64,000 nt of DNA from Sediminibacterium magnilacihabitans (lineage in GTDB: Bacteria > Bacteroidota > Bacteroidia > Chitinophagales > Chitinophagaceae), in contig PVEQ01000005.1 in NCBI GenBank assembly GCA_002973575.1, forward strand, positions 1 to 64,000. The letters run 5' to 3'. Position numbers and translations under genes: made by a program. The notes beneath the pieces were generated by a model. That model searched no databases and was not told the DNA's origin. It saw only the letters and a program-made list of their open reading frames with translations. The first letter of the stretch is position 1; the number at the start of each line of letters is the position of its first letter. Below are positions 16,523 to 30,166 of this stretch, piece by piece.

Positions 16523-18517
16523 ATGCCTACCTCTTCTTCGGCTGGTCATAATTATTTGAGCAAATTAAGTTTTGCGGGCTTATTGGTAACGCTGGGTATC
16601 ATTTATGGTGATATCGGAACTTCTCCTTTATATGTATTCCGCTCCATCATCGGCGAACGGCCCATTACGGAAGAGCTGGTATATGGTGGAATATCCTGTG
16701 TGGTGTGGACACTGACCCTGCAAACTACTTTTAAGTATGTATTCCTTACGCTGAGAGCAGATAACAAGGGTGAGGGAGGAATATTTTCCCTGTATGCATT
16801 GGTTCGCCGGTATGCCAAATGGTTGTATGTGCCGGCCATCATCGGTGCTGCCACCCTGCTGGCCGATGGCATCATCACCCCACCCATTTCCGTGGCTTCG
16901 GCCATTGAAGGATTGGGTGGTGTAAAAGGTTTGGAAACTATCATTGTTCCCGGCAATAACCTTACGGTAGGTATTGTGATCGGTATCATCTCCCTACTGT
17001 TCTTTTTCCAGCGGTTCGGTACCAAAGTAGTGGGCTTTTCTTTTGGCCCTATTATGCTCATCTGGTTTACCATGATCATGATATTAGGGGCTGCGCAGAT
17101 TGCGCACATGCCTGAAATTCTTAAGGCCATCAACCCTTATTATGGCATTGAGCTGCTGGTCAACTATCCCAAAGGTTTCTGGATACTGGGCGCTGTTTTC
17201 CTTTGTACAACAGGAGCAGAAGCGTTGTACAGTGACCTAGGACACTGCGGACGCAGGAATATCCAGGTGAGCTGGATATTTGTGAAATTCGCCCTCATCA
17301 TCAATTATATGGGGCAAGGCGCCTGGTTGCTGTTGCAGCACAGTAAATCGCTGGGCGATTTGAATCCTTTTTATGAGCTGATGCCACACTGGTTCCTGCT
17401 TGTGGGTATCATCATTGCCACGATGGCCACTATCATTGCCAGCCAGGCTTTGATCAGTGGGTCATTTACACTTATCAGTGAAGCCATCAGCATGAACTTC
17501 TGGCCGAGGGTTACCATTAAATTCCCCACCGACATCAAAGGGCAGATCTATATTCCCAGCCTGAATATCATATTATGGATCGGATGTATAGCCATGATGT
17601 TGTATTTCCGGGAGAGCGGTCATATGGAAGCGGCTTATGGCTTCTCCATTGTTATTGCCATGCTGATGACCACCACGCTGATGTATGTGTACATGCACAG
17701 GGTGCGCAAATGGAATCTTGCATTGATCACCCTTATTATGATGGTGTTCATTACCGTGGAAGTGGCTTTCTTCATTGCCAATGTGGCCAAGATCAAGCAA
17801 AGGTGGATGTTCCTTTTCTTTGAATTCGGACTCACTTTCATCATGGTAATATGGTTCCGGGCCCGCAAGATCACCAATCGCTATTTACAGTTCGTGAAGT
17901 TCTCGGATTATCTCCCACGATTGATAGAACTCAGCGAGGATACGAATTTCCCCAAATACGCCACGCACCTGGTTTACCTTACCAAGGCTGATTACGATGG
18001 AGAAATTGAAAAAAGGATCATGCATTCCATCCTGCACCGCAGGGCCAAGCGGGCCGAAGTTTACTGGTTTATACATATCGACAGGGCCGATGCTCCTTTT
18101 ACCATGGAGTATTCTACCAAAGAACTCGTGAAAGGGAAAGTGATACGGATCGACTTTAAGCTGGGCTTCCGTGTACAGCCCCGCATCAACCTGTTGTTCA
18201 AGAAAGTGGTGCAGGAAATGTTTAACAGGGGAGAAATATGTGTGATCAATAAATACGAGAGCCTGCAAAGAGAAACTTTCCATGCCGACATACGTTTTGT
18301 GATCATAGAATCGTTCCTCTCGGTGGAGAACGAGCTTTCGTTCAAGGAAGGATTCATCATGGATTCCTATTTTGCCATCAAGAACTGGGCACAGTCAGAC
18401 CAGAAAGCATTCGGCCTCGACAATGCATCTACTGTTATTGAAAACGTGCCGTTACTCATCAACCCCAAAGTATACCTGCCGTTGCAGCGTGTTGACAGAA
18501 GGTCTTCTTCTGTTTGA
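16523..18517 (+). CDS. kup: KUP/HAK/KT family potassium uptake transporter
   Basis: A 664-residue integral membrane protein with about twelve hydrophobic segments and a C-terminal cytoplasmic domain (about 450-664). Family blocks include GIIYGDIGTSPLYVF near the start, ADNKGEGGIFSLYAL, ADGIITPPISVASAIEG and TTGAEALYSDLGHCG. It takes up K+ with protons and is probably the housekeeping system next to the inducible Kdp ATPase. The ATG at 16523 gives a short polar lead before the first helix. Its TGA abuts the stop codon of the convergent kinase gene. Confidence 0.95.
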   Translation: MPTSSSAGHNYLSKLSFAGLLVTLGIIYGDIGTSPLYVFRSIIGERPITEELVYGGISCVVWTLTLQTTFKYVFLTLRADNKGEGGIFSLYALVRRYAKWLYVPAIIGAATLLADGIITPPISVASAIEGLGGVKGLETIIVPGNNLTVGIVIGIISLLFFFQRFGTKVVGFSFGPIMLIWFTMIMILGAAQIAHMPEILKAINPYYGIELLVNYPKGFWILGAVFLCTTGAEALYSDLGHCGRRNIQVSWIFVKFALIINYMGQGAWLLLQHSKSLGDLNPFYELMPHWFLLVGIIIATMATIIASQALISGSFTLISEAISMNFWPRVTIKFPTDIKGQIYIPSLNIILWIGCIAMMLYFRESGHMEAAYGFSIVIAMLMTTTLMYVYMHRVRKWNLALITLIMMVFITVEVAFFIANVAKIKQRWMFLFFEFGLTFIMVIWFRARKITNRYLQFVKFSDYLPRLIELSEDTNFPKYATHLVYLTKADYDGEIEKRIMHSILHRRAKRAEVYWFIHIDRADAPFTMEYSTKELVKGKVIRIDFKLGFRVQPRINLLFKKVVQEMFNRGEICVINKYESLQRETFHADIRFVIIESFLSVENELSFKEGFIMDSYFAIKNWAQSDQKAFGLDNASTVIENVPLLINPKVYLPLQRVDRRSSSV

Positions 18518-20209
18518 TCATGCTTTGGGTAACGAAAAAGAAAACTGACTGCCTTCACCGGTGCGGCTCGCAGCCCATATCTGTCCGTGTTGTGCTTCAA
18601 TGAACTCTTTGGAAATGGATAGACCCAGCCCTGTGCCAGTTTCTTCATGAACCCCCGGCACTTTAAAATAGCGGTCGAAAATGCGGGGCAGGTATTTCTC
18701 ATCAATGCCTTTCCCATGATCGGTTACGGTAAAAATGATCTTGCCTTTGTGCAGTGATGCACTCACTTCGATGGATGAGGATTCGGAAGAATATTTGATG
18801 GCATTGGTGAGCAGGTTAACCAGTACCCAGGATGTTTTTTCAGCATCTGCCTGGATGGAAGGCAGGTCGTTTGCCAACTGGCGATGGATAGCAATATTTT
18901 TCTGCTGCGCAGGTAATGCAACGGCCTGCGTAGCTTGTTCTATGATGGAGGCCGGATTAGTAGCCTGTAATTTCAGGTGAATATGCCCTGTTTCTACCTG
19001 CGACATATTCAGCAGTTCGCCGGTAATCTTCAGCAACCGTTCGGCATCGTCGCGGATACTGCCGATGAGCTCCTGTTGCTCATTGTTCAGCGAGCCTACC
19101 CTGTTGTCTGTGAGGAGCTGCGCACTCATTTTGATGGCGGAAATAGGCGTTTTCAGTTCATGTGAAACAGTAGCGATGAAATTGGTTTTAGCCGTATTCA
19201 GTTCATGGAAGGGAGTGATGTTGCGCAAAATGATCACCTGCCCGATAATGGTTTCGTTATTGGTTACATTGAGTGTGTCTTTGTTGAAATAACTTTCTTT
19301 GTTGTCGGCAAATATTTTCAATTCTTTTTTATCCTCATGCAGTAACGTGCGCATAAGATCGTTGCCCAATGCCACATCGGGCGCATACATGCCTATAATA
19401 GAGCTTTCTTTGATACCGAGCAAAGTTTCAGCTACCGGATTCAGGAACAGTATGTTCCGTTTAGCATCCAGTCCAATGATGCCATCTTTCATTTGGTTGA
19501 TGATGGTCTCTATCCGGCTTTTTTCAAACTTGATCTGTGCCAGGTTGCTGTGCTCATATTCATCCAGCTTTTCAGCCATACTGTTAAAGGCGGCTGCCAG
19601 CTCGCCGAACTCATCTTCCTGTTGCAGGAAAATCCTTTTCCGGTAATTTTTGTTGGCGATCTCATGTATACCGTCGTTGAGCAGGCGAACGGGAGTGGCA
19701 ATGATGGCGGGGAAATTCACTACAAAAGAGAAAGCAACCAGCCCCAGTACTACAAAAATGATCGTCAGCCATAAAGTAGCGTCCTCTGCCGTTTTTAACG
19801 CCACGGCATTTTTCCGGAGCATGGCTTGCTGGTTGAGCTCATCGATACGTAAGATGTCTTGCCGTACGGTAGCATAGTCGACCGGGCCACCCGGATTAGA
19901 TAGCAGCGCTGAAAAATTTCTACGCAAAGTTTGCGTGGCTTCTCTCTCGCCGATCTCCGTGATGTTGTTTTCCTGTTTGCTCAGGTTGTTATCGAAAAGC
20001 TGTATGGCTTCTTTTTTCCCTGGAATGTCTTCCAGCGATTTCAACATATTGTTACAATACACGAGCGATTCGTAATTGTTCTTCAGTACTTTTTCCGCGT
20101 CGCCGCTTAAGCGGTTGATATAAAAAATGGCCAGTATGCCATAAGTAAGGATGACAATGAAAAGAAAGGATAATCCCAGTCCGAGTTTTGTTTTTAGTTT
20201 GATGGCCAT
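18518..20209 (-). CDS. HAMP-PAS sensor histidine kinase of the kdp operon
   Basis: A 563-residue membrane histidine kinase. Two membrane segments (about 9-31 and 147-170) bracket a periplasmic helical domain; then HAMP (about 170-222), PAS (about 230-335), HisKA with the phospho-acceptor His350 in ATVSHELKTP, and HATPase_c with VLVNLLTNAIKYS and GTGLGLSISKEF. It starts one base after the KdpD sensor-domain gene ends, so it probably supplies the kinase that this shortened KdpD lacks. The output partner is probably the sigma-54 regulator at 28762-30111. Confidence 0.9.
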   Translation of the reverse strand: MAIKLKTKLGLGLSFLFIVILTYGILAIFYINRLSGDAEKVLKNNYESLVYCNNMLKSLEDIPGKKEAIQLFDNNLSKQENNITEIGEREATQTLRRNFSALLSNPGGPVDYATVRQDILRIDELNQQAMLRKNAVALKTAEDATLWLTIIFVVLGLVAFSFVVNFPAIIATPVRLLNDGIHEIANKNYRKRIFLQQEDEFGELAAAFNSMAEKLDEYEHSNLAQIKFEKSRIETIINQMKDGIIGLDAKRNILFLNPVAETLLGIKESSIIGMYAPDVALGNDLMRTLLHEDKKELKIFADNKESYFNKDTLNVTNNETIIGQVIILRNITPFHELNTAKTNFIATVSHELKTPISAIKMSAQLLTDNRVGSLNNEQQELIGSIRDDAERLLKITGELLNMSQVETGHIHLKLQATNPASIIEQATQAVALPAQQKNIAIHRQLANDLPSIQADAEKTSWVLVNLLTNAIKYSSESSSIEVSASLHKGKIIFTVTDHGKGIDEKYLPRIFDRYFKVPGVHEETGTGLGLSISKEFIEAQHGQIWAASRTGEGSQFSFSLPKA

Positions 20210-20210
20210 A

Positions 20211-21344
20211 TCAGGAAAGGATTACAATATCAATATCTGAAGCAGACAATTTATTCAGCAGTTGGTTGAATACGGCAGTGCTCATGATCACATTCAGCAG
20301 GTTGATATGCGGTTTGCCAATACAAATGGTGGTAATGTTTTTTTGTCCCGTGACTTCAAAAATACCTCTTGCAATATTACTACTCCTGACGCGGATCACT
20401 TCGGCGCCCAATTCAGTAGCCAGTTTAAAATTATTAATGAGGTGACGCTGTGCGGCCAATCCTATTTTATCTCCTTCTTCCCTGGGTGTTTGCACATAAA
20501 GCAAAAACCATTTGGAATTATAATAAGCGGCAAGCCGTGCTGTTTTGCGGATCACTTTACGGGCTATTTCATGATTGCTGCTGATGCAGGCCAGGAAACG
20601 TTCCTGCCGGTAATTGTTGATGCCCGGCATTTCGGTTTCGATCTTTCTTTCTACCTGTGATGCCACTTCTTTGAGCGCCAGCTCTCTTAATTGCAGGATC
20701 TTTTCACTCTGAAAAAAATGCTGCAACGCGATCTCAATTTTATCCGGGGTGTATATTTTCCCTTCTTTCAAACGGGTGATCAGTTCATCTGCGGTGAGAT
20801 CAATGTTCACTACTTCATCGGCCTGTTGCAATATGCTGTCGGGCACCCTTTCTGCCATATCTATCCCGGTGATTTGTTTAACCTCGTCGTTCAGGCTCTC
20901 CATGTGCTGGATATTCACAGCGCTGATCACGTGAATGCCGGCATCGAGAATGTCCATCACGTCCTGCCAGCGTTTTTCATTCTTACTTCCCTCAATATTA
21001 GTATGAGCCAACTCGTCAACGACCACTATTTCGGGACGAAGGGCCAGTACCGCAGGCACATCCAGCTCTTCCAACTCTTTGCCTTTGTAAAATAATGTTC
21101 TGCGTGGGATCAGGGGCAACCCTTCCAATAAGGCTTCTGTTTCTTTTCGCTGATGTGTTTCTATATAACCGATCTTAACGTCTACACCGTTGCGCAACAA
21201 CGCATGAGCTTCCTGCAACATGCGGTAAGTTTTACCCACGCCGGCACTCATGCCGATGTATATCTTTAGCTTACCTTTTCTCGATCTTTTAATGAGGTCG
21301 AGAAAATGCTGCACATTGTTTTCTTTGTTGTTGTCGTCAGGCAT
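20211..21344 (-). CDS. kdpD: KdpD N-terminal sensor protein (no kinase domain)
   Basis: A 377-residue stand-alone version of the cytoplasmic N-terminal half of KdpD. It has the KdpD domain with a Walker A-like IGMSAGVGKTYRML (30-43) and VVVDELAHTN (Walker B-like), then a UspA-like domain (about 250-377; CISSNHEIARKVIRKTA). There are no membrane segments and no histidine kinase domain. In this operon the kinase is the next gene. The family responds to K+ limitation or turgor; here it may modulate the kinase through direct binding (inference). Confidence 0.92.
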   Translation of the reverse strand: MPDDNNKENNVQHFLDLIKRSRKGKLKIYIGMSAGVGKTYRMLQEAHALLRNGVDVKIGYIETHQRKETEALLEGLPLIPRRTLFYKGKELEELDVPAVLALRPEIVVVDELAHTNIEGSKNEKRWQDVMDILDAGIHVISAVNIQHMESLNDEVKQITGIDMAERVPDSILQQADEVVNIDLTADELITRLKEGKIYTPDKIEIALQHFFQSEKILQLRELALKEVASQVERKIETEMPGINNYRQERFLACISSNHEIARKVIRKTARLAAYYNSKWFLLYVQTPREEGDKIGLAAQRHLINNFKLATELGAEVIRVRSSNIARGIFEVTGQKNITTICIGKPHINLLNVIMSTAVFNQLLNKLSASDIDIVILS

Positions 21345-21356
21345 AGCATAAGATCA

Positions 21357-22715
21357 TTATAGTCTGAAAAGCATAGCCAGGATCAGCCTGTTCTCCGATT
21401 TCACCAGGTCGGGCCTCCAGTTGGGCGGCAAAGGAGTAGTAGTGTATCCGTCGGGAGAAGTTACACCACCCCTGCCTGCAAAATAAGGCACGCTGGCATG
21501 TCGCGTAACGAATTCAAGGCGAAAGGTAATACTTTGATTGGGCAGGTAATCCAGGTTTGTGGAAGCATCCCATCCGTTGAATGGATCACCCGGATTTGCA
21601 CTGAAGGGAAATGCTCCTTCGGTTTGGGTGGGGTTACTGGGATTGGGCAAGGGGCTTGCCTGGCCAGTTGGATAGAGTACCAGGTACCTTCCCGGGTTGG
21701 TCATCACACCACCACCAATGGTCCAGGCGAATTTATTTTTTGCAAACCAGGTACGGTTGTAGAACATGGCACTCAGGAAATTTTGTGATGGTGTATTTGC
21801 ATCGCCGCCAAAAGCTTTTACACCGGCGCCCGTTTCAAAACCCAGGTCACCGGTAAGGGAGAATGCCATTTTACTGATGCCACTGGAATTTGGACGGTTA
21901 TAATAACGCACGAGCCAACTGTTATCTGAGTGGAAACGTTTCCTGCCGGGAATACCACCGGCATCGGTGCCGTAATAGTTGTTGGTGAGGAGCTTCATGT
22001 AGTCGTTGGGTATCCAGGTAAAATTGAAACCGAAACCCGGCATGCTGTTGAATTTACCATAGCTCTGCCATCCGTTGATGATCCAGGGTTCGAACTTGAT
22101 ATGTTTGGAAGGAAAGATCTGTATGCGGATGCCGTTGAAGAACCAGGGTGTATTATCTGAAGTGAAAGAAGCCTGGTACTCCCAGTTCTCAGGCTGGTAA
22201 TAAGAGTTCAACCCGATATAAGACATGAATAATCCTGCATCGATATTGATGCCATACCATTTATCGATGTGATAACCGGCATAGGCTTCGCTGAGGTAAC
22301 GATACACATCATCGAGATGATATTGGCCACGATATATGCTGAGATCGTTCCTGGGTACCACTGTAGAACGGGTACCGAATTGCGTCATGACCCTTGCGTG
22401 TGCATTCAGGTAGGTGAAATCGCCGCCAAGATGCAGGGCCGACAACTGTACTTCATTGTGCCTGGCCATTGCGGTGGATCCTACAACGGTGTTATCGATG
22501 GGATTATTGAATGAATAATTGTAGTTCACATCCAGTAAAATACTGGGTATGAAATAAACACCTTTGAATACACTTGAATCACGCCGGTCGTTACCATTAT
22601 GCCAGGTCATGTCAATGCCTTCAAAAGGAATCTTAGGTTTGCTGGTGTCTTGCTGTGCTTGTGCTATGATCGATGCTGCGGAGCAGATGATCGTTAGTAT
22701 ATGTCTTTGCATCAT
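21357..22715 (-). CDS. Outer-membrane beta-barrel porin inside the kdp operon
   Basis: A 452-residue exported barrel: signal peptide MMQRHILTIICSAASIIAQAQ, then alternating aromatic strands (VNYNYSFNNPIDNT, YNRTWFAKNKFAWTIGGG) and a C-terminal strand ENRLILAMLFRL. It resembles the putative beta-barrel porin-2 group. It lies three bases after kdpC and twelve bases before kdpD, so it belongs to the operon. A role as the outer-membrane entry for K+ under starvation is inferred from position only. Confidence 0.82.
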   Translation of the reverse strand: MMQRHILTIICSAASIIAQAQQDTSKPKIPFEGIDMTWHNGNDRRDSSVFKGVYFIPSILLDVNYNYSFNNPIDNTVVGSTAMARHNEVQLSALHLGGDFTYLNAHARVMTQFGTRSTVVPRNDLSIYRGQYHLDDVYRYLSEAYAGYHIDKWYGINIDAGLFMSYIGLNSYYQPENWEYQASFTSDNTPWFFNGIRIQIFPSKHIKFEPWIINGWQSYGKFNSMPGFGFNFTWIPNDYMKLLTNNYYGTDAGGIPGRKRFHSDNSWLVRYYNRPNSSGISKMAFSLTGDLGFETGAGVKAFGGDANTPSQNFLSAMFYNRTWFAKNKFAWTIGGGVMTNPGRYLVLYPTGQASPLPNPSNPTQTEGAFPFSANPGDPFNGWDASTNLDYLPNQSITFRLEFVTRHASVPYFAGRGGVTSPDGYTTTPLPPNWRPDLVKSENRLILAMLFRL

Positions 22716-22718
22716 TGA

Positions 22719-23282
22719 TTATTTTAATTGATCCAGCGCCAGGTTCAATGGCAATACATTCACCACACTCGTTCCTAAAACGCCTAAAAACGGGCTTTCG
22801 GTATATTGCTGAACAAGCTGTTTGAGCCGCTCTTCAGAAATATGCCTGTAAGCAGCAACTCTCTTTACCTGCACCATGGCGGCTTGCGGAGAAATATGGG
22901 GGTCTAGTCCGCTACCAGAAGCCGTTACCAGCTCGGAGGGAATGTCGGCTCTTTCAATTCCCGGGTTGTGTGCCAGGAAACTATCGATGCGCGCGTTCAC
23001 TTCTTTCAGGTAATCAGGGTTGGAGGGGCCTTTATTACTGCCCGTACTGCCGGCGGCATTGTATCCTGCCGCTGAGGGACGGCCCTGAAAATAATTGTCG
23101 CGTGTGAATGACTGGCCTTCCAGGCGATAGCCTACGGTTTTGTTTTGTGATACTACTGTTTCACCGCGTCCCCTGGCAGGGGCAGCCTGCGCCGCTATCC
23201 ATATCAGCAGCGGGTATGCTACCATGAAAACTACTATGCAGACCAGTGTTAATTTTATTGCGGGAAGAATATGCTGTTTCAT
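22719..23282 (-). CDS. kdpC: Potassium-transporting ATPase subunit C
   Basis: A 187-residue single-pass protein: one N-terminal membrane helix (about 10-32) and a periplasmic domain with QNKTVGYRLEGQSF, YFQGRPSAAGYN, ASGSGLDPHISPQAA and VNVLPLNLALDQ. It stabilises the KdpFABC complex and its interaction with ATP/K+. Length and motifs are standard. Confidence 0.96.
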   Translation of the reverse strand: MKQHILPAIKLTLVCIVVFMVAYPLLIWIAAQAAPARGRGETVVSQNKTVGYRLEGQSFTRDNYFQGRPSAAGYNAAGSTGSNKGPSNPDYLKEVNARIDSFLAHNPGIERADIPSELVTASGSGLDPHISPQAAMVQVKRVAAYRHISEERLKQLVQQYTESPFLGVLGTSVVNVLPLNLALDQLK

Positions 23283-23290
23283 ATCTATGA

Positions 23291-25360
23291 TTAAAAAAAG
23301 TTTGCAATCAAAATATCGATCAGTTTAATACCAATGAAGGGTACCAATATGCCACCCAACCCGTATATCAACAGGTTCCTTCTTAGTAAAGCGCTGGCGC
23401 CAATGGGCCTGTAAGCTACTCCTTTCAATGCCAGGGGTATTAACAGGGGTATGATGATGGCATTGAAAATGACGGCGGAGAGAATGGCCGTTTCCGGGCT
23501 GTGCAGGCGCATGATGTTCAATGCCTGCAAAGAGGGCAACGAGGTGATGAAGAGCGCCGGGACGATGGCGAAATATTTGGCCACATCATTCGCAATGCTG
23601 AATGTAGTAAGTGTGCCGCGGGTCATGAGCAGTTGTTTACCAATCTCCACTATTTCGATCAGCTTGGTGGGATCATTATCAAGATCCACCATATTGCCCG
23701 CTTCTTTAGCAGCTTGTGTACCGCTGTTCATGGCAACGCCTACATCGGCTTGTGCCAGTGCCGGCGCATCGTTGGTGCCATCGCCCATCATAGCCACCAG
23801 CTTACCGCTGTTCTGTTCTTTTTTGATGTAATTCATTTTGTCTTCCGGTTTTGCTTCGGCAATGAAATCATCCACGCCCGCTTTTTGTGCAATGTATCTT
23901 GCAGTGAGCGGGTTATCGCCGGTTACCATCACCGTTTTCACGCCCATTTTGCGTAACCGGTCAAAACGTTCCTGTATGCCGGGCTTGATAATATCTTGCA
24001 ACTCTATCACGCCCCATACCTTTTTTTGATGCGATACCACCAGTGGCGTACCACCGTTGGAGGCGATGGATTTTACTTTCTCTGTGGTCTCATCGGGAAA
24101 GGGATTACCTGCTTTGCTTACGATATGGTGAATGGAATCGTAAGCGCCTTTGCGTATTTGAATATTACCCGGCAGGTCTACACCACTGCTCCTGGTTTCA
24201 GCAGTAAAATCAATGAACCGCATGCCATTTTCTTCACCGCCTTTGAGAGATGGGGCGCTCAGGCCCTGGGCTACAGCCAATTCAATGATGGATTTTCCCT
24301 CCGGAGTCTGGTCTGCAAGCGAGGCAAGTACACAGGCTTCCATGAAATCCTGCTGCGATATGTTTGCCGCAGGCCAGAAATGAGTGGCTTTACGGTTACC
24401 GATAGTAATGGTTCCCGTTTTATCGAGCAAAAGGGTATCGATGTCACCGGCTGTTTCTACTGCTTTACCGCTTTTGGTAATGACATTGGCGCGCAAAGCC
24501 CTGTCCATACCTGCTATGCCAATAGCACTGAGCAAACCACCGATGGTGGTAGGGATCAGGCAAACGAACAAGGATATGAATGCAGCGATGGTAATGGGCG
24601 TGTGCGCAAAGTCGGCAAATGGTTTCAGGGTAACACATACGATCACGAACACCAGTGTGAAGCCAGCCAACAAAATGGTGAGTGCAATTTCATTGGGTGT
24701 TTTCTGCCGGGAAGCGCCTTCTACCAATGCGATCATTTTATCGAGGAATGATTCGCCGGGTTCGGTAGTTACACGTACTTTGATTTTATCCGACAACACT
24801 TTGGTGCCGCCGGTAACGGAACTTTTATCACCACCAGCTTCCCTGATCACGGGAGCCGATTCGCCGGTGATAGCGCTTTCATCGATGGTGGCCAGGCCTT
24901 GTACGATCTCTCCGTCCATCGGAATGATATCGCCTGCTTCGCATAAAAACAGATCACCTTTTTTCAAACGGGAAGAAGGAACGATCTTGATCTCATTCAC
25001 GAATATTTCTCCTACTGTTTGGATCCATTTGGCAGGCGTTTCTTCCCTTGTCTTACGCAGGCTATTGGCTTGTGCTTTACCACGGGCTTCTGCAAGGGCT
25101 TCAGCGAAATTGGCAAACAAAATGGTGATAAAGAGTATGGCGAAGACAAGGATATTGTAGGTGAGACTGCCTTGCGACCGGTTGCCGCTGAGTATCCATA
25201 AACATACGCCCAGCATGATGATACAACCGATTTCCACGGTAAACATTACAGGGTTGCGGAACAGGATGCGGGGATTGAGCTTGATGAAAGATTGTTTCAG
25301 CGCTTCTGCAACGAGCTCGCGTTCAAAAAGCCGGGTTGTTCTGTGTTTTGACATATTCAA
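23291..25360 (-). CDS. kdpB: Potassium-transporting ATPase subunit B
   Basis: A 689-residue P-type ATPase, the energising subunit of KdpFABC. The actuator loop [12 protein letters not shown] (159-170) and the phosphorylation motif DKTGTIT with Asp313 are present, followed by [34 protein letters not shown] and the C-terminal helices. The ATG two codons downstream (25354) is an equally good start. It ends eight bases before kdpC. Confidence 0.97.
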
Positions 25361-25364
25361 TCAA

Positions 25365-27065
25365 TTATTTCATTCCAAAAAATTCAGCCAAAGGGCCAAG
25401 GGTCAGCGCAGGGAAAAAGCTCAGTGCCGCAACGATAAAGATCACTGCCAGCACCATGATACCGAATGTGCCGGTATCTGTTTTAAGTGTTCCTGCACTT
25501 TGGGGGATGTATTTTTTCTTCGCCAGGATGCCTGCAATGGCCAATGGACCAATGATGGGCAGGAAGCGCGACAACAACATCACGATACCACAGGTGATAT
25601 TCCAGTACGGTGTATTGTTGCCCAGACTGGCAAAATTGCTGCCATTGTTAGCGGCAGAGGAAGTGTATTCATACAACATGGCGCTGAAACCGTGACTGCC
25701 CGGGTTGTTGAGCCAGCCGGCATAAGTTGCGGGGTCGTGCGCATAAAGATGGGAAGACAAAGCAGTGGCTGAGAGGATTAGCAGTGGGTGCAGTAATGCA
25801 ATGATCACGGCAATCTTCATTTCTTTGGCTTCGATTTTTTTTCCAAGGAACTCTGGTGTTCTGCCTACCATCAATCCACTGATGAAAACAGCGATGATGA
25901 TAAAAATGTAGAAGTTGAGAAAGCCCACGCCTACACCTCCGTAAAACGAATTCACCATCATGCCCAGCATGGCCATCATACCCGATAATGGAGTAAGACT
26001 ATCGTGCACGCCATTGACAGAACCATTGGAAGTAACCGTAGTAACGACCGACCAGAAAGCGGTGGCTGCCGAACCGAACCTGACTTCTTTTCCTTCCATG
26101 CTACCCATTTGCTGGTTGATGCCCATTTGTGTAATAGCAGGATTGCCCTTCATTTCATAATACACAGAAGGCAGGAGGAAGAGCAGGCACCCAATGGTCA
26201 TGACGCCAAAGATGGTCCAGGCCAGTCTTCTTTTCTTGAGTACATAGCCCATAGCAAAAACCATCGCCACTGGAATGAGAAAGATAGAAGCACATTCAGC
26301 CATATTGGTGAAATAGTTGGGGTTCTCCAGGGGGTGGGCAGAGTTGGCGCCGAAAAAGCCGCCGCCATTGGTGCCCAGTTGCTTGATGGCCACCATCGCT
26401 GCGGCAGGACCCCTTGACACATTTACCGTATCTCCCTGTAATGAAATAAACTGTGACTTACCCTGGAAGGTCATGGGTGTACCATTGAATACCAGTAACA
26501 GGGCCAGCACAATTGAAAGCGGCAACAATATCCTGGTGCAGCTTTTCACAAAGTAGTTATAGAAATTGCCGAGTTTGTCCGTGGTTCTTTCTTTCATTGC
26601 ATGAAATACTACTGCGCAAACAGCCATACCTGCACCTGCACTGATGAATTGGAATAACATCAACACCAATTGACCGAGGTAGGAAACGCCTGTCTCGCCA
26701 CTATAGTGCTGCAGGTTGGTATTGCTGACGAAACTGATGGTGGTATTGAAAGCCAGATCGGCCGACATGCCGGGGTTGCCATCGGGGTTGAGCGGCAGCC
26801 ATTGCATGTTCATGAGTATAAACATGGAAAAGAGAAACCATACCAGGTTGATGGTAAGCAAGGCTGTGAGGTGCTGTTTCCAGTTCATTTCTTTTTCCGG
26901 CCTGATGCCCGACAGTTTAAAGAACAGGCGGTCGAGCGGTGCCAGGAATCTGTCGGGCCAGTTTTTTTCTTCGCTATACACTTTCCCTATGTACCGGCCT
27001 AATGGGATGGCCAATAAAAGTGTAAGGATGAAAGTGATACTGATGCCTAAAATTTCTGTGTTCAT
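25365..27065 (-). CDS. kdpA: Potassium-transporting ATPase subunit A
   Basis: A 566-residue channel-like subunit of the SKT superfamily, with about ten membrane helices. Selectivity-filter-like segments are visible at NTNLQHYSGETG, TNGGGFFGANSAHPLENP, TSNGSVNG and EYTSSAANNGSNF. It selects K+, which KdpB then drives inward. It starts 19 bases after kdpF. Confidence 0.97.
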   Translation of the reverse strand: MNTEILGISITFILTLLLAIPLGRYIGKVYSEEKNWPDRFLAPLDRLFFKLSGIRPEKEMNWKQHLTALLTINLVWFLFSMFILMNMQWLPLNPDGNPGMSADLAFNTTISFVSNTNLQHYSGETGVSYLGQLVLMLFQFISAGAGMAVCAVVFHAMKERTTDKLGNFYNYFVKSCTRILLPLSIVLALLLVFNGTPMTFQGKSQFISLQGDTVNVSRGPAAAMVAIKQLGTNGGGFFGANSAHPLENPNYFTNMAECASIFLIPVAMVFAMGYVLKKRRLAWTIFGVMTIGCLLFLLPSVYYEMKGNPAITQMGINQQMGSMEGKEVRFGSAATAFWSVVTTVTSNGSVNGVHDSLTPLSGMMAMLGMMVNSFYGGVGVGFLNFYIFIIIAVFISGLMVGRTPEFLGKKIEAKEMKIAVIIALLHPLLILSATALSSHLYAHDPATYAGWLNNPGSHGFSAMLYEYTSSAANNGSNFASLGNNTPYWNITCGIVMLLSRFLPIIGPLAIAGILAKKKYIPQSAGTLKTDTGTFGIMVLAVIFIVAALSFFPALTLGPLAEFFGMK

Positions 27066-27084
27066 AATAAAGGCTGCTTATGGT

Positions 27085-27162
27085 TTAAAATTTCTCGGGT
27101 TTTACCAGTACATAACAGAGGTAGCAGAAAACCAGGATAGCAATAATGAATAGTAATAACAT
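27085..27162 (-). CDS. kdpF: Potassium-transporting ATPase subunit F
   Basis: A 25-residue single-helix peptide, MLLLFIIAILVFCYLCYVLV followed by KPEKF, matching the KdpF pattern of one hydrophobic helix and a short PEKF-like tail. KdpF stabilises the KdpABC complex in the membrane. It sits directly before kdpA, its canonical position. It is below the size limit of most gene finders. Confidence 0.88.
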   Translation of the reverse strand: MLLLFIIAILVFCYLCYVLVKPEKF

Positions 27163-27165
27163 GGA

Positions 27166-27249
27166 TTATATTTTTTCGAACCATTGAATGAATTTGAAAA
27201 ACAGGGCGAAGAGGACGAGCCCGACGGCAATGAGCAGTATTGTTTGCAT
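27166..27249 (-). CDS. 27-residue membrane micropeptide at the head of the kdp operon
   Basis: ATG at 27247-27249 to TAA at 27166-27168 encodes a peptide beginning MQTILLIAVGLVLFALFF and ending KFIQWFEKI: one membrane helix and a short amphipathic charged end. Its stop is three bases before the kdpF start codon. The design (one helix, then aromatic/charged tail ending EK plus a hydrophobic residue) mirrors KdpF, suggesting a second KdpF-like subunit or a leader peptide. The predicted sigma-54 start leaves only about nine bases before its ATG. I know of no named family for it. Confidence 0.55.
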   Translation of the reverse strand: MQTILLIAVGLVLFALFFKFIQWFEKI

Positions 27250-27269
27250 AGCATGTTTTTGAGCGATGC

Positions 27270-27284
27270 GCCAAAAGGATGCCA
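27270..27284 (-). promoter_or_regulatory. Sigma-54 (-24/-12) promoter of the kdp operon
   Basis: The reverse strand reads TGGCATCCTTTTGGC. Against the consensus TGGCAC-N5-TTGC, the GG (-24) and GC (-12) have the obligatory spacing and TGGCA is perfect; the only core mismatch is the second T of TTGC. It lies just upstream of the first kdp reading frame, and an NtrC-type activator is encoded nearby. Confidence 0.65.
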
Positions 27285-27315
27285 CTAAAGACAGGTTAGC
27301 GTATTGGGAATGGCA

Positions 27316-27336
27316 AACCCTTTGTTTGTAAGGGTT
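27316..27336. promoter_or_regulatory. Inverted repeat upstream of the kdp promoter
   Basis: AACCCTT and AAGGGTT, seven bases each and perfectly complementary, with a seven-base spacer. The centre is about 68 bases upstream of the predicted start. It could be an activator or repressor site. Confidence 0.4.
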
Positions 27337-27384
27337 CGCTGTTACAGCAGAAAAAAGAGGTAGAAAAAGCCGCTCCGCTATACC

Positions 27385-27416
27385 TTTTCATTTTGGGGTG
27401 GTTTTTTCATTTTGGG
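27385..27416. promoter_or_regulatory. Tandem TTTTCATTTTGGG repeats, candidate enhancer sites for kdp
   Basis: The 13-base word occurs at 27385-27397 and 27404-27416, a 19-base period (nearly two helical turns), about 127-158 bases upstream of the predicted sigma-54 start, where NtrC-type activators usually bind. The core TCATTTTGGG recurs at the very start of the sigma-54 regulator gene (30107-30116, reverse strand). The rest of 27417-27539 shows nothing recognisable. Confidence 0.45.
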
Positions 27417-27539
27417 AGGGAAGGGGGCGATTCAAAAAAACCAACCTGGAAGTAGCTAAGCAACTCCATACACGATTCCATATTGACGGTAACCGTTTGC
27501 TCGAAAGCCCTTGAAATAGTTGCTTGAGAAATGGGGTAT

Positions 27540-28649
27540 TTACAGTATTTTACTAACGAGCCAATTGTTCATTACTTCTAATACTTCCGGGGCGAAGGTT
27601 TCTGACAATTGTGCATATTCCTGGATGGTGCATTTGGTACAATGCTGAAACAAATGGTTTAATCCGGAGAAGATCTTAGCCGTTACATTTTTATTTCCGG
27701 CTTTGTTTAGTGACGCTGTAATCGCAGACACATTCTGTTCCGGGTATACCTGGATGTCTTTCCCGCCATTTAATACCAATACCGGGCATTTTACTTTACT
27801 CCAAAACAGATCCGGTTCCGTAGCAATAAAATATTTAAGCCAGGGCTTCAATTCCGCTTTGACTTGGAAATCAGCATATATCTCTGGTGTTACTTTTTTT
27901 GCATTAAGCGGTGTTAAAATGCTATCGGGTAAACCATTTTTCCAACTGGCAAATAATTCTTTTGCCCTATTCAATATCAACGAGTCATTTTCATTAGCAT
28001 GATCATGAATAATTTGTAGTGTTTGTTTCGTAAGTGAATAGAAAGCATTGTATGTATCGCCATTTACTGCATTTTTTAAAGGGTCCGTTTGCTGTTTCAG
28101 CAATACTTCTGCGCCCGATACACCCGTTCCCGCTAAGGAGATTATAAAAGACAAATGGGGCCATTTCGTGTACACCAAAGGTGCAATAAAGCCGCCCTCA
28201 CTATGTCCGATAAGGCCTATCTTGCGCTTATTAATTTCTTTTCTGGTTAATAAATAATGAATACTTGCTTCCACATCATTTGCAAAATCAGCGCTGGTAG
28301 CATTTAATACATCTCCTTTGCTTTTGCCGATATTCCTGTCGTCTACCCTTAATACGGCAATGCCATGGTTGGTTAAGTAATCGGCAATTACAGCAAAAGG
28401 CTTATGATTAAAAATGGTTTCATCTCTATCCTGTAACCCGCTTCCGGTGATCATTATGGCTACCGGGAAGGGGCCCTTTGTTTTCGGATACGTTAATGTG
28501 GCGCCTAAATGAACGGTCTTCTCTGTATTGTCATATTCAACACTATCAACATTGTAATGGAAAGGAGGTTTAGGGGTTTGAGGCCTGTTGTTTGTTTGTG
28601 CCTGTGCAACTGAGAGAATGCCTGTAAGAGCAAGGAATAGTTTTCTCAT
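27540..28649 (-). CDS. Exported alpha/beta hydrolase
   Basis: A 369-residue alpha/beta hydrolase (dienelactone hydrolase/BAAT-like) with a signal peptide MRKLFLALTGILSVAQAQ. Nucleophile elbow GHSEGG, oxyanion region MITGSGLQDRDE, acid Asp region VLVLNGGKDIQVYP and catalytic His in SGLNHLFQH. The ATG at 28647-28649 gives the signal peptide; upstream codons look non-coding. By eye the gene is clearly more AT-rich than its neighbours and separates the kdp operon from its likely regulator, so it may be a later insertion. Substrate unknown; esterase or peptidase activity is likely. Confidence 0.85.
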   Translation of the reverse strand: MRKLFLALTGILSVAQAQTNNRPQTPKPPFHYNVDSVEYDNTEKTVHLGATLTYPKTKGPFPVAIMITGSGLQDRDETIFNHKPFAVIADYLTNHGIAVLRVDDRNIGKSKGDVLNATSADFANDVEASIHYLLTRKEINKRKIGLIGHSEGGFIAPLVYTKWPHLSFIISLAGTGVSGAEVLLKQQTDPLKNAVNGDTYNAFYSLTKQTLQIIHDHANENDSLILNRAKELFASWKNGLPDSILTPLNAKKVTPEIYADFQVKAELKPWLKYFIATEPDLFWSKVKCPVLVLNGGKDIQVYPEQNVSAITASLNKAGNKNVTAKIFSGLNHLFQHCTKCTIQEYAQLSETFAPEVLEVMNNWLVSKIL

Positions 28650-28761
28650 GCTTACTATTATTTTTGATCTTTCGACCCCTGGTGTTGTAGTACCGGGGGT
28701 GTTAGTGTTTTCTAAGATAATGTTTTTGCAGTTAAGAGACATGCATTGATTCATGTGAACT

Positions 28762-30111
28762 TCACAGGATATGATACTCCTCAATTTTCCTGTATAAAGT
28801 AGTGAGCCCGATGTTCAATAGCCTGGCGGCTTCGGTTTTATTTCCTTTGGTATGGTTTAAGACGCGTTGTATGTGTAGTTTTTCAACACTGGAGAGATCA
28901 AAAGCGGAAAGTTGGGATGAACTCTTATGGATAGAGCCTAAACTGGATTGCAATTCAAACGGCAGGTCTTCTGTTGTAAGGGTATCTCCTGTGGCCAGGA
29001 TCACCGCTCTTTCCATGACGTTCTTGAGTTCGCGGATATTGCCCTTCCAATCGTGTTGCTGCAGGCGCTCCATGAATTCAGTGTTCATAGTTGTAACATG
29101 CTGATTGGTTTTGAGAGCAAACTGGCGTAGGAAATGTTCGGCGAGTAATGGGATGTCTTTGATTCTTTCGCGCAGTGCCGGTAGTGTAATGGTGAAAACA
29201 TTCAGCCGGTAATAAAGGTCTTCACGGAAATGTCCTGATTGTATTTCATCCTGTAAACTTCGGTTGGTAGCGGCAATGATGCGCACATTCACTTTGGTAG
29301 AGCGGGTATCACCTACTTTGATGAATTCTCCTGTTTCCAGCACGCGCAATAATTTGGCCTGCAGTTCCATAGGCATTTCGCCGATCTCGTCGAGAAACAG
29401 GGTGCCATTATTCGCTTCTTCTATGAGTCCTTTTTTGTCTTTCACTGCACTGGTGAAAGCACCGGCTTTGTGTCCGAATAATTCACTCTCCAGCAATTCT
29501 TTCCCAAATGCGCTGCAATTGAGTGCCAGAAAAGGCTTGCAGGTTCTTTTACTGGCATGGTGTATGGCCTGGGCAAAAACTTCTTTGCCGGTGCCCGTTT
29601 CTCCCAGTAACAGAACTGTGGCATCGGTAGGCGCTACTTTTTGCGCCAGGGCTACAGCTTCCTTGATCAGGGGCGAGCGGCCAAGGATCTGCTCGAAACC
29701 ATATCGCTTGCCCACGCGTTGTTCCAATAACTCAATATGCTTGCGCAGTTGTACTTTTTCCATTGCCTGGTTGATGAGCGGAATTACTTTTTCGTTGTCA
29801 TCACCCTTGGTGATATAATCAAAAGCGCCACTCTTCATGGCCTGAACGCCATCGGCAATATTGCCATAAGCGGTGAGCAATATGATTTCAACGGAAAGAT
29901 ATTTGGACTTGAGCTCCTGTACAAACTGCAGGCCATTGCCATCAGGTAATTTTACATCGCAGAGCACCACATCTATGGTCTCTTTATCCATCAGCTTACG
30001 TGCCGATTTGAGGTCGGGCGCTTCCCATACCATGAACCCTTCGAGCCGGATGATGCGGCTGAGCAAGGTGCGGAGTTTTTCTTCGTCGTCTATGAGAAGG
30101 ATGTTGCCCAA
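28762..30111 (-). CDS. NtrC-type sigma-54-dependent response regulator
   Basis: A 449-residue activator: receiver domain with phospho-acceptor Asp52 in LCDVKLPDGNG and the conserved Lys in YITKGDD; AAA+ domain with Walker A GETGTGKE (170-177), the sigma-54-contacting GAFTSA loop (217-222) and FLDEIGEM; C-terminal Fis-type helix-turn-helix (GNKTEAARLLNIGLTTLYRK). I choose the TTG at 30109-30111 because the receiver fold begins there (NILLIDDEE) and a TAATTTTG promoter element lies just upstream; a longer TTG start at 30144 is possible. It is the likely partner of the kdp-operon kinase. Confidence 0.9.
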   Translation of the reverse strand: MGNILLIDDEEKLRTLLSRIIRLEGFMVWEAPDLKSARKLMDKETIDVVLCDVKLPDGNGLQFVQELKSKYLSVEIILLTAYGNIADGVQAMKSGAFDYITKGDDNEKVIPLINQAMEKVQLRKHIELLEQRVGKRYGFEQILGRSPLIKEAVALAQKVAPTDATVLLLGETGTGKEVFAQAIHHASKRTCKPFLALNCSAFGKELLESELFGHKAGAFTSAVKDKKGLIEEANNGTLFLDEIGEMPMELQAKLLRVLETGEFIKVGDTRSTKVNVRIIAATNRSLQDEIQSGHFREDLYYRLNVFTITLPALRERIKDIPLLAEHFLRQFALKTNQHVTTMNTEFMERLQQHDWKGNIRELKNVMERAVILATGDTLTTEDLPFELQSSLGSIHKSSSQLSAFDLSSVEKLHIQRVLNHTKGNKTEAARLLNIGLTTLYRKIEEYHIL

Positions 30112-30128
30112 AATGACTGATTTAAAGT

Positions 30129-30136
30129 CAAAATTA
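30129..30136 (-). promoter_or_regulatory. -7 element of the sigma-54 regulator gene
   Basis: Reverse-strand TAATTTTG, an exact TANNTTTG match, about 17 bases before the preferred TTG start. It lies in a direct repeat of TTTTGACTTT. Confidence 0.4.
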
Positions 30137-30166
30137 AAAGTCAAAAGGCAAAACAGCGTGATTAAC

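Follow-up and report, generated by a model that had tools for sequence, protein, structure and literature searches.

Gene organisation of the kdp locus

The stretch of 64,000 nt from Sediminibacterium magnilacihabitans (hereafter the window, meaning the whole of the DNA analysed) carries a kdp operon on the reverse strand (Table 1). Read along that strand, a gene for an NtrC-type response regulator is followed by a hydrolase gene, about 290 intergenic bases, a micro-ORF, kdpF, kdpA, kdpB and kdpC, and then by genes for an OmpL-like porin, the N-terminal part of KdpD and a histidine kinase. KdpD is split in two here (20211-21344 and 18518-20209), and no single chain combines sensor and kinase. 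The separate N-terminal protein resembles the KdpD-like non-kinase sensor NF038185, although it scores below the cut-off of that model. The genome also carries rpoN, with one match to the sigma-54 DNA-binding domain.

Table 1. Genes and predicted control elements of the kdp locus, in order of transcription.
Feature	Position	Strand	Remarks
NtrC-type response regulator	28762..30144	-	460 aa from TTG start; receiver, sigma-54 AAA+, Fis-type HTH (Pfam)
Alpha/beta hydrolase (esterase-like), between regulator and kdp	27540..28784	-	Present upstream of kdp in close relative L002 too
Predicted distal operator copy TCCCTCCCAAAATGAAAAAAC	27401..27421	-	Score 11.8 of 16.5, alone near background; 19 bp further upstream than the proximal copy
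Predicted proximal operator copy ACCACCCCAAAATGAAAAGGT	27382..27402	-	Score 12.8 of 16.5; 5' end 119 bp from first G of -24 GG
Sigma-54-type -24/-12 element TGGCATCCTTTTGGC	27270..27284	-	GG at 27283-27282, GC at 27271-27270
Membrane micro-ORF MQTILLIAVGLVLFALFFKFIQWFEKI, 27 aa, first ORF past the promoter	27166..27249	-	No NCBIfam match at E <= 0.1
kdpF, 25 aa	27085..27162	-	NCBIfam TIGR02115, 24.1 bits, below 26.85 cut-off
kdpA	25365..27065	-	PF03814
kdpB (P-type ATPase)	23291..25354	-	Domain annotation
kdpC	22719..23282	-	PF02669
OmpL-like porin (BBP2), same strand after kdpC	21357..22715	-	PF07642
KdpD N-terminal part, separate 377-aa protein without kinase domain	20211..21344	-	PF02702; NF038185 (KdpD_non_kinase) 362 bits, below 550 cut-off
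Histidine kinase, 563 aa (HAMP, PAS, HisKA, HATPase)	18518..20209	-	Presumed to act with the regulator, on the basis of gene neighbourhood

The regulator was read from its TTG codon, since the first ATG would give a protein of 423 aa with a cut receiver. All three parts expected of an NtrC-type protein are present, and alignment shows the conserved receiver motif DVKLPD. The HTH is the best conserved of the parts measured, with a mean identity to the window's sequence of 0.81 over 102 full-length proteins, against 0.66 for the receiver and 0.73 for the AAA+ domain. Among 107 regulators of relatives the GAFTGA loop is intact in 86, a near variant in 20 and unread in one, and in the window's regulator it reads GAFTSA. 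The best match among solved chains is 4l4u. The order of receiver, sigma-54 AAA+ and Fis HTH is that of the AtoC/NtrC family, from which this regulator differs in its link to kdp and in its scores; the best NCBIfam model is AtoC (433 bits), and the protein falls below the cut-off in each of the best 25 of 127 models.

Candidate promoter and upstream repeats

The sequence TGGCATCCTTTTGGC upstream of the kdp operon consists of GG, ten bases and GC, with one mismatch to TGGCAYN5TTGC. The earlier note on this DNA had given it the correct GG/GC spacing for a sigma-54 promoter, and this was borne out (GG-N10-GC at 27284..27270, reverse strand). If the C at 27270 is taken as -12, the sequence predicts a start near 27258. 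Two repeats had also been placed 127-158 bases upstream; exact copies of TTTTCATTTTGGG do lie at 27385-27397 and 27404-27416, 19 bp apart, spanning 127 to 158 from the predicted start, and are the window's only exact copies of this 13-mer. Around each lies a longer palindrome of 21 bp, degenerate in both cases, of which the 13-mer is the core (27382-27402 and 27401-27421).

By count, these motifs are unremarkable in 64 kb. The -24/-12 pattern with at most two mismatches occurs 151 times against 149 expected (20 of the 151 with one mismatch), and a scan for the 13-mer that allowed mismatches gave 5 against 5.05 expected. The case therefore rests on comparison and conservation.

The regulator in kdp loci of relatives

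The first set of relatives comprised the 80 best named loci (L008-L087) of 565 matches in a KdpA scan, together with short loci from relatives' genomes; the named loci are from Bacteroidota. Orthologs of the regulator (57-76% identity in the best matches) lie in the kdp locus of 76 of the 80. The ortholog is missing in L013, L050 and L063, which are short contigs, and in L064, where the absence is real. The L064 locus has kdp with 8 kb of upstream sequence, without regulator and without a clear operator, and offers a natural test of co-loss. The position of the regulator gene varies, being downstream of kdp in L068 and more than 5 kb upstream in some loci (L010, L035). Where a locus extends far enough to include them, matches to the KdpD N-terminal part and to the kinase form two separate stretches next to each other.

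For the later set, 247 genomes of the phylum were drawn. In this draw a KdpA match was found in 70 other genomes, of which 40 contributed a kdp locus: 24 of the 25 belonging to the same family or class (all but G099, which was under the cut-off) and 16 of the 45 in other classes, chosen to spread over families. Each of the 24 same-class loci (three of them from the same family) has the regulator upstream of kdp, and by cluster totals none of these loci falls in a 90% KdpA cluster of the first set. Four of the other-class loci have the regulator, which in L164 is cut by the end of the stretch, and 12 have no ortholog of it in the stretch. In seven of these 12 (L152, L153, L157, L159, L160, L162 and L165) a regulator with an OmpR-type C-terminus, judged by eye, follows kdp, and in L155, L156 and L158 no OmpR-type regulator was seen after kdp. 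L151 has a weak match over a 143-aa fragment, with no open frame there. In L161, also of another class, a different NtrC-type response regulator (L167 4682-6013, reverse strand), 39% identical to that of the window and with another recognition helix, precedes genes for a permease and a histidine kinase as well as kdp. Its gene content suggests that kdp may be under sigma-54 control there too, via this other regulator, so that one of the negative controls, all of them without an ortholog of the window's regulator, may use the same kind of control. Since rpoN was found in 40/40 genomes tested, including those without the regulator, its presence does not discriminate.

Conservation of the promoter element and the palindromes

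Spaced trinucleotides enriched over Markov shuffles were collected from 85 regions upstream of kdp, a number that includes the window's copy and two near-duplicates. Without any seed, GGC-N7-TTG (41 against 6.2 expected) and GGC-N8-TGG (29 against 4.0) were recovered, which together are the -24/-12 form of this lineage, as were ACC-N15-GGT (41 against 2.2) and CCT-N11-AGG (44 against 3.1), which give the palindrome ACCCTTTCAWWWTGAAAGGGT. A strict -24/-12 regular expression matches in only 7 of 86 loci; the de novo dyads then gave the lineage's form of the -12 box, which in many relatives reads TTGG rather than TTGC, and an A sometimes follows the GG. The -24/-12 score was widened after the first set was seen, to C or A after GG and C or G at -12. 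In 64 aligned sites the -24 GG is invariant, partly by construction of the score, and in the close relative L002 the element is the same as in the window. Lack of conservation in relatives was one of the outcomes that, for the earlier note, would have sunk its promoter claim; the element lies upstream of kdp in most relatives, at restricted distances, and the claim survived.

For the palindrome, 67 of the 82 first-set loci had a best operator score of at least 13. The later loci gave 12 of 24 for the same class, one of four for other classes with the regulator and none of 12 for those without an ortholog; among the one-kb background stretches, taken from downstream of kdpA, 1 of 796 scored as high. 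The 82 loci of the final counts leave out L003 (= L047), L040 (= L005), L050 (80 bp upstream) and L004 (the window itself). Sites were placed with a cut-off of 10.5. Background reaches this level within 1 kb (median best background score 10.5; 893 such sites in 1.18 Mb), so a few loci, L068 (operator 11.0, element 10.0) included, have probably been counted by chance. A fitted motif placed 62/83 above the 99% null, a figure of no evidential weight, as motif and test share data.

The window's own operator copies are degenerate, and their mark is that there are two of them, in the right place. Of 110 loci, 78 have a second copy (score at least 9) 18-26 bp to one side of their best site, whereas 10.9% of the 660 control bands do; raising the score to 10.5 gives 46/110 and 1.1%. 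Such a copy was found in 1 of the 12 loci without a regulator ortholog. The 19-bp spacing of the window's pair falls inside the 18-26 bp range.

The distance between the two elements is restricted. Measured from where the operator begins to the leading G of the -24 GG, it is 93-98 or 114-123 bp in 74 of the 82 first-set loci (shuffle mean 1.64, maximum 6), and 119 bp in the window. The 80-locus version of the first set, window included, gives 74/80 (shuffle mean 1.61, maximum 6); this version, used for distances and for T-runs, keeps L004 and L040 and leaves out L003 and L050, plus L063, L064, L065 and L082, whose best site is below 11. Distance ranges and score were chosen on the first set and applied unchanged to the later loci, 18 of 24 of which fall within the preset ranges (shuffle mean 0.49, maximum 3), with four more at 106-107. 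When a 105-107 class is added, the counts become 74/82 in the first set, 22/24 in the later loci, 2/4 in the other-class loci with the regulator and 0/12 in those without an ortholog; by KdpA cluster they are 51/57, 13/15, 2/4 and 0/12. The misses among the 24 are L127 and L140, the former having, by eye, a near-perfect -24/-12 element and a half palindrome, which were left uncounted. The four other-class loci have distances of 98, 119, 89 and 83, the last two being misses (L163 and L166, respectively).

The unwidened consensus TGGCACN5TTGC[AT] gives a weaker result, 45/82 in the first set (shuffle mean 5.77) and 8/24 in the later loci (mean 1.54, maximum 5). L065 and L082, where the operator is further up, were scanned over 1700 bp and all others over 1000; the unwidened-consensus run used 1000 throughout and so counts 72/82. 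A helical-period fit of the distances (L004 included) is flat around 11-11.5 bp, so the claim is limited to restricted distances and phasing is unproven.

A quite improbable alternative gives kdp an ordinary sigma-A promoter of the Bacteroidota type and assigns the palindromes to a classical activator or repressor, be it the regulator or some other protein. The -7 box of this sigma factor in Bacteroidota is TAnnTTTG, and with one mismatch it occurs twice on the reverse strand of 27240-27540, as TCCTTTTG at 27279, which is inside the -24/-12 element, and as TTTTTTTG at 27440, but there is no exact occurrence on that strand of the same region. Moreover, the neighbouring regulator has the sigma-54 AAA+ domain and its loop, here GAFTSA, and the GGC-N7-TTG dyad, which arose unseeded, is not required by a sigma-A -7 box.

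Specificity of the operator in whole genomes

When up to one mismatch is allowed, a 19-base operator pattern finds 19 sites in 14 other genomes. All eight exact sites (in eight genomes) and two of the one-mismatch sites lie upstream of kdpA; the remaining nine one-mismatch sites are at other positions, compared with 10 for the reversed pattern. At this stringency, five of the 14 genomes (G010, G066, G076, G157 and G038) have no site at their own kdp. In the 4.04 Mb genome of the window, the two repeats are two of the three sites within two mismatches of the longer pattern CCYYCCAAAATGRAAARGG, and at up to three mismatches there are 21 sites against 21 for the control. Because clear copies away from kdp are no commoner than background, the regulator looks dedicated to kdp, within reach of the patterns used.

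The 19-mer CCTCTCAAAATGAAAAGCC is identical on four contigs of the window's genome (G000 C3, C21, C23 and C25), and is perhaps a repeated or mobile element.

Probable overlap of the palindrome with a terminator

The proximal palindrome of many relatives forms a clean stem with T's after it, a short way past the stop codon of the upstream gene. A T-run (6 or more T in 8) follows it in 52 of 59 loci at most 90 bp from that stop, against 8 of 21 further away (window included); the link is not strict, with seven near-stop loci lacking the T-run and eight distant loci having it. Four copies in relatives fold at -10.4 to -10.9 kcal/mol. These properties would suit palindromes that are only the intrinsic terminator of the upstream gene, with the tandem repeats as its debris, yet such an explanation is very unlikely. 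The copies of the window, L010 and L012 fold poorly, at -0.3 to -2.1 kcal/mol (-0.3 in the window, which has no T-run), and lie 138, 238 and 96 bp, respectively, from the upstream stop. Stem and T-run have decayed in these three loci, yet the core, the tandem copy and the distance to the -24 box (119, 119 and 118 bp, respectively) are kept. The tandem sites are also kept in L010 and L035, though the regulator gene is remote there, and a terminator has no need of a set distance from the -24 box, of tandem copies, or of near-confinement to kdp in whole genomes. Since stem and T-run decay where the stop is distant while core, tandem arrangement and distance persist, the operator role looks the more constant of the two.

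The palindrome in many relatives probably also ends the upstream transcript. We give slightly better than even chances to a sigma-54 switch dedicated to kdp across the Bacteroidota, in which one 21-bp palindrome would serve as enhancer in the DNA and, in many species, as terminator in the RNA of the gene just upstream, often that of the activator itself. Where the preceding gene is further off or another gene intervenes, as in the window, the palindrome would have ceased to act as a terminator. If this is true, an enhancer that doubles as a terminator is unusually compact regulatory DNA, with the same letters under two selections.

Proposed control of kdp and comparison with known systems

The control region of kdpFABC very probably consists of a sigma-54-type promoter and a pair of upstream activator sites. 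From the sequence we infer the binding protein, the signalling kinase, the K+ signal, the start site and the use of the promoter, as follows. At low K+, the histidine kinase, possibly together with the separate KdpD N-terminal protein, would phosphorylate the NtrC-type regulator. The phosphorylated regulator would bind the two palindromic sites at 27382-27421 and loop to sigma-54 polymerase at the -24/-12 element, and its hydrolysis of ATP would open the promoter, with transcription of the micro-ORF and kdpFABC from about 27258.

An alternative control logic for kdp, with sigma-54 and an enhancer instead of KdpE, was the broader claim of the earlier note. It is supported by the conserved elements and their spacing, by the NtrC-type regulator one gene upstream of kdp, by rpoN, and by the lack of an OmpR-type regulator among the locus's annotated genes. 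That a KdpD/KdpE system with an OmpR-type regulator acts on kdp as in E. coli is hardly credible, for while the operon does encode a KdpD N-terminal protein and a histidine kinase, annotation of genes at the locus turned up no OmpR-type regulator, and a Bacteroidota KdpE (that of L157) has no match above 36% identity in the genome, a level typical of paralogs. Sigma-54 control through an NtrC-type regulator is predicted in nearly all examined kdp loci of the window's class, and in some of other Bacteroidota.

In E. coli, KdpE is an OmpR-type regulator that works without sigma-54. Two-component control of kdpFABC and the KdpD N-terminal domain are common to that system and the one described here; in the latter, the regulator is of the NtrC type and KdpD is split. 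Textbook Kdp control is by KdpD/KdpE, whereas comparison points, for most kdp loci of Bacteroidota examined, to sigma-54 and an activator of the NtrC type, to an operator that occurs chiefly at kdp, and to KdpD in two parts. The consensus of the operator and its preferred spacings allow this prediction to be tested directly.

The closest precedent comes from another phylum. DVU3334 of Desulfovibrio vulgaris Hildenborough is described as the regulator of its own kdpFABC operon, and the kinase there as divided between two proteins, one a K+ sensor/Usp protein and the other a histidine kinase (PMC3333781). DVU3334 is also listed as a sigma-54 response regulator with GAFTGA and a function in potassium uptake (PMC4641369). 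Among the species compared in the first of these sources (2011), orthologs are reported only in D. vulgaris Miyazaki and S. fumaroxidans (PMC3333781). Compared by these descriptions, the two systems share a sigma-54-dependent NtrC-type regulator of kdp and a split kinase (PMC3333781, PMC4641369), and differ in gene order, the regulator being inside the kdp operon in D. vulgaris; the operator may differ too. Sigma-54 control of kdp is therefore not new as a kind. What is added here is its predicted breadth in Bacteroidota, the operator, the spacing and the probable overlap with a terminator. Acidihalobacter aeolianus also has a sigma-54 regulator beside kdp, but there KdpD and KdpE are both present, the gene order is like that of E. 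coli, and the portion of the source consulted makes no claim that the sigma-54 regulator controls kdp (PMC9062700).

Among the literature matches listed for kdp with sigma-54 or related terms, a coverage with most subscription journals outside it, there is no description of sigma-54 control of kdp in Bacteroidota. This phylum is counted among those with mainly short KdpD, in a text whose accessible part mentions no NtrC-type regulator (PMC11018627). The main text of a survey of sigma-54 regulons that includes Bacteroidota has neither 'kdp' nor 'potassium' (PMC12316311). In the available portions of three further sources, kdp is named only through the E. coli PTS-Ntr (PMC3162934), kdpA-D of Chryseobacterium are listed with no link to a sigma-54 regulator (PMC10634447), and nothing is said on sigma-54 control of kdp (PMC8534201).

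Other features of the kdp loci

Over 26000-29000 a search against Rfam at E <= 1 gave one match, far below the gathering score of its family, so that no known riboswitch is supported in this region. An inverted repeat, AACCCTTACAAACAAAGGGTT, lies at 27311-27338 and is less perfect in L002.

A micro-ORF similar to that of the window (about 26-30 aa, usually ending F-[ED]-K-I) precedes kdpF in 78 of 86 loci, the window's included, and is perhaps an unrecognised small Kdp subunit. In L018, L064, L036 and Flavobacterium loci such as L080, the -24 box is 100-400 bp from the micro-ORF, and more small ORFs seem to sit between; one of 34 aa was seen by eye in L018. A gene for a Kup-type K+ transporter (16523-18517, forward strand) converges on the kinase gene of the window, and kup lies between the regulator and kdp in several relatives (L018, L022, L025, L027, L033 and L062). 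The OmpL-like porin (BBP2) is encoded in further kdp loci too, some of which (L009, L051, L053, L079, L128 and L154) have it at 72-76% identity, and perhaps provides an outer-membrane path for K+.
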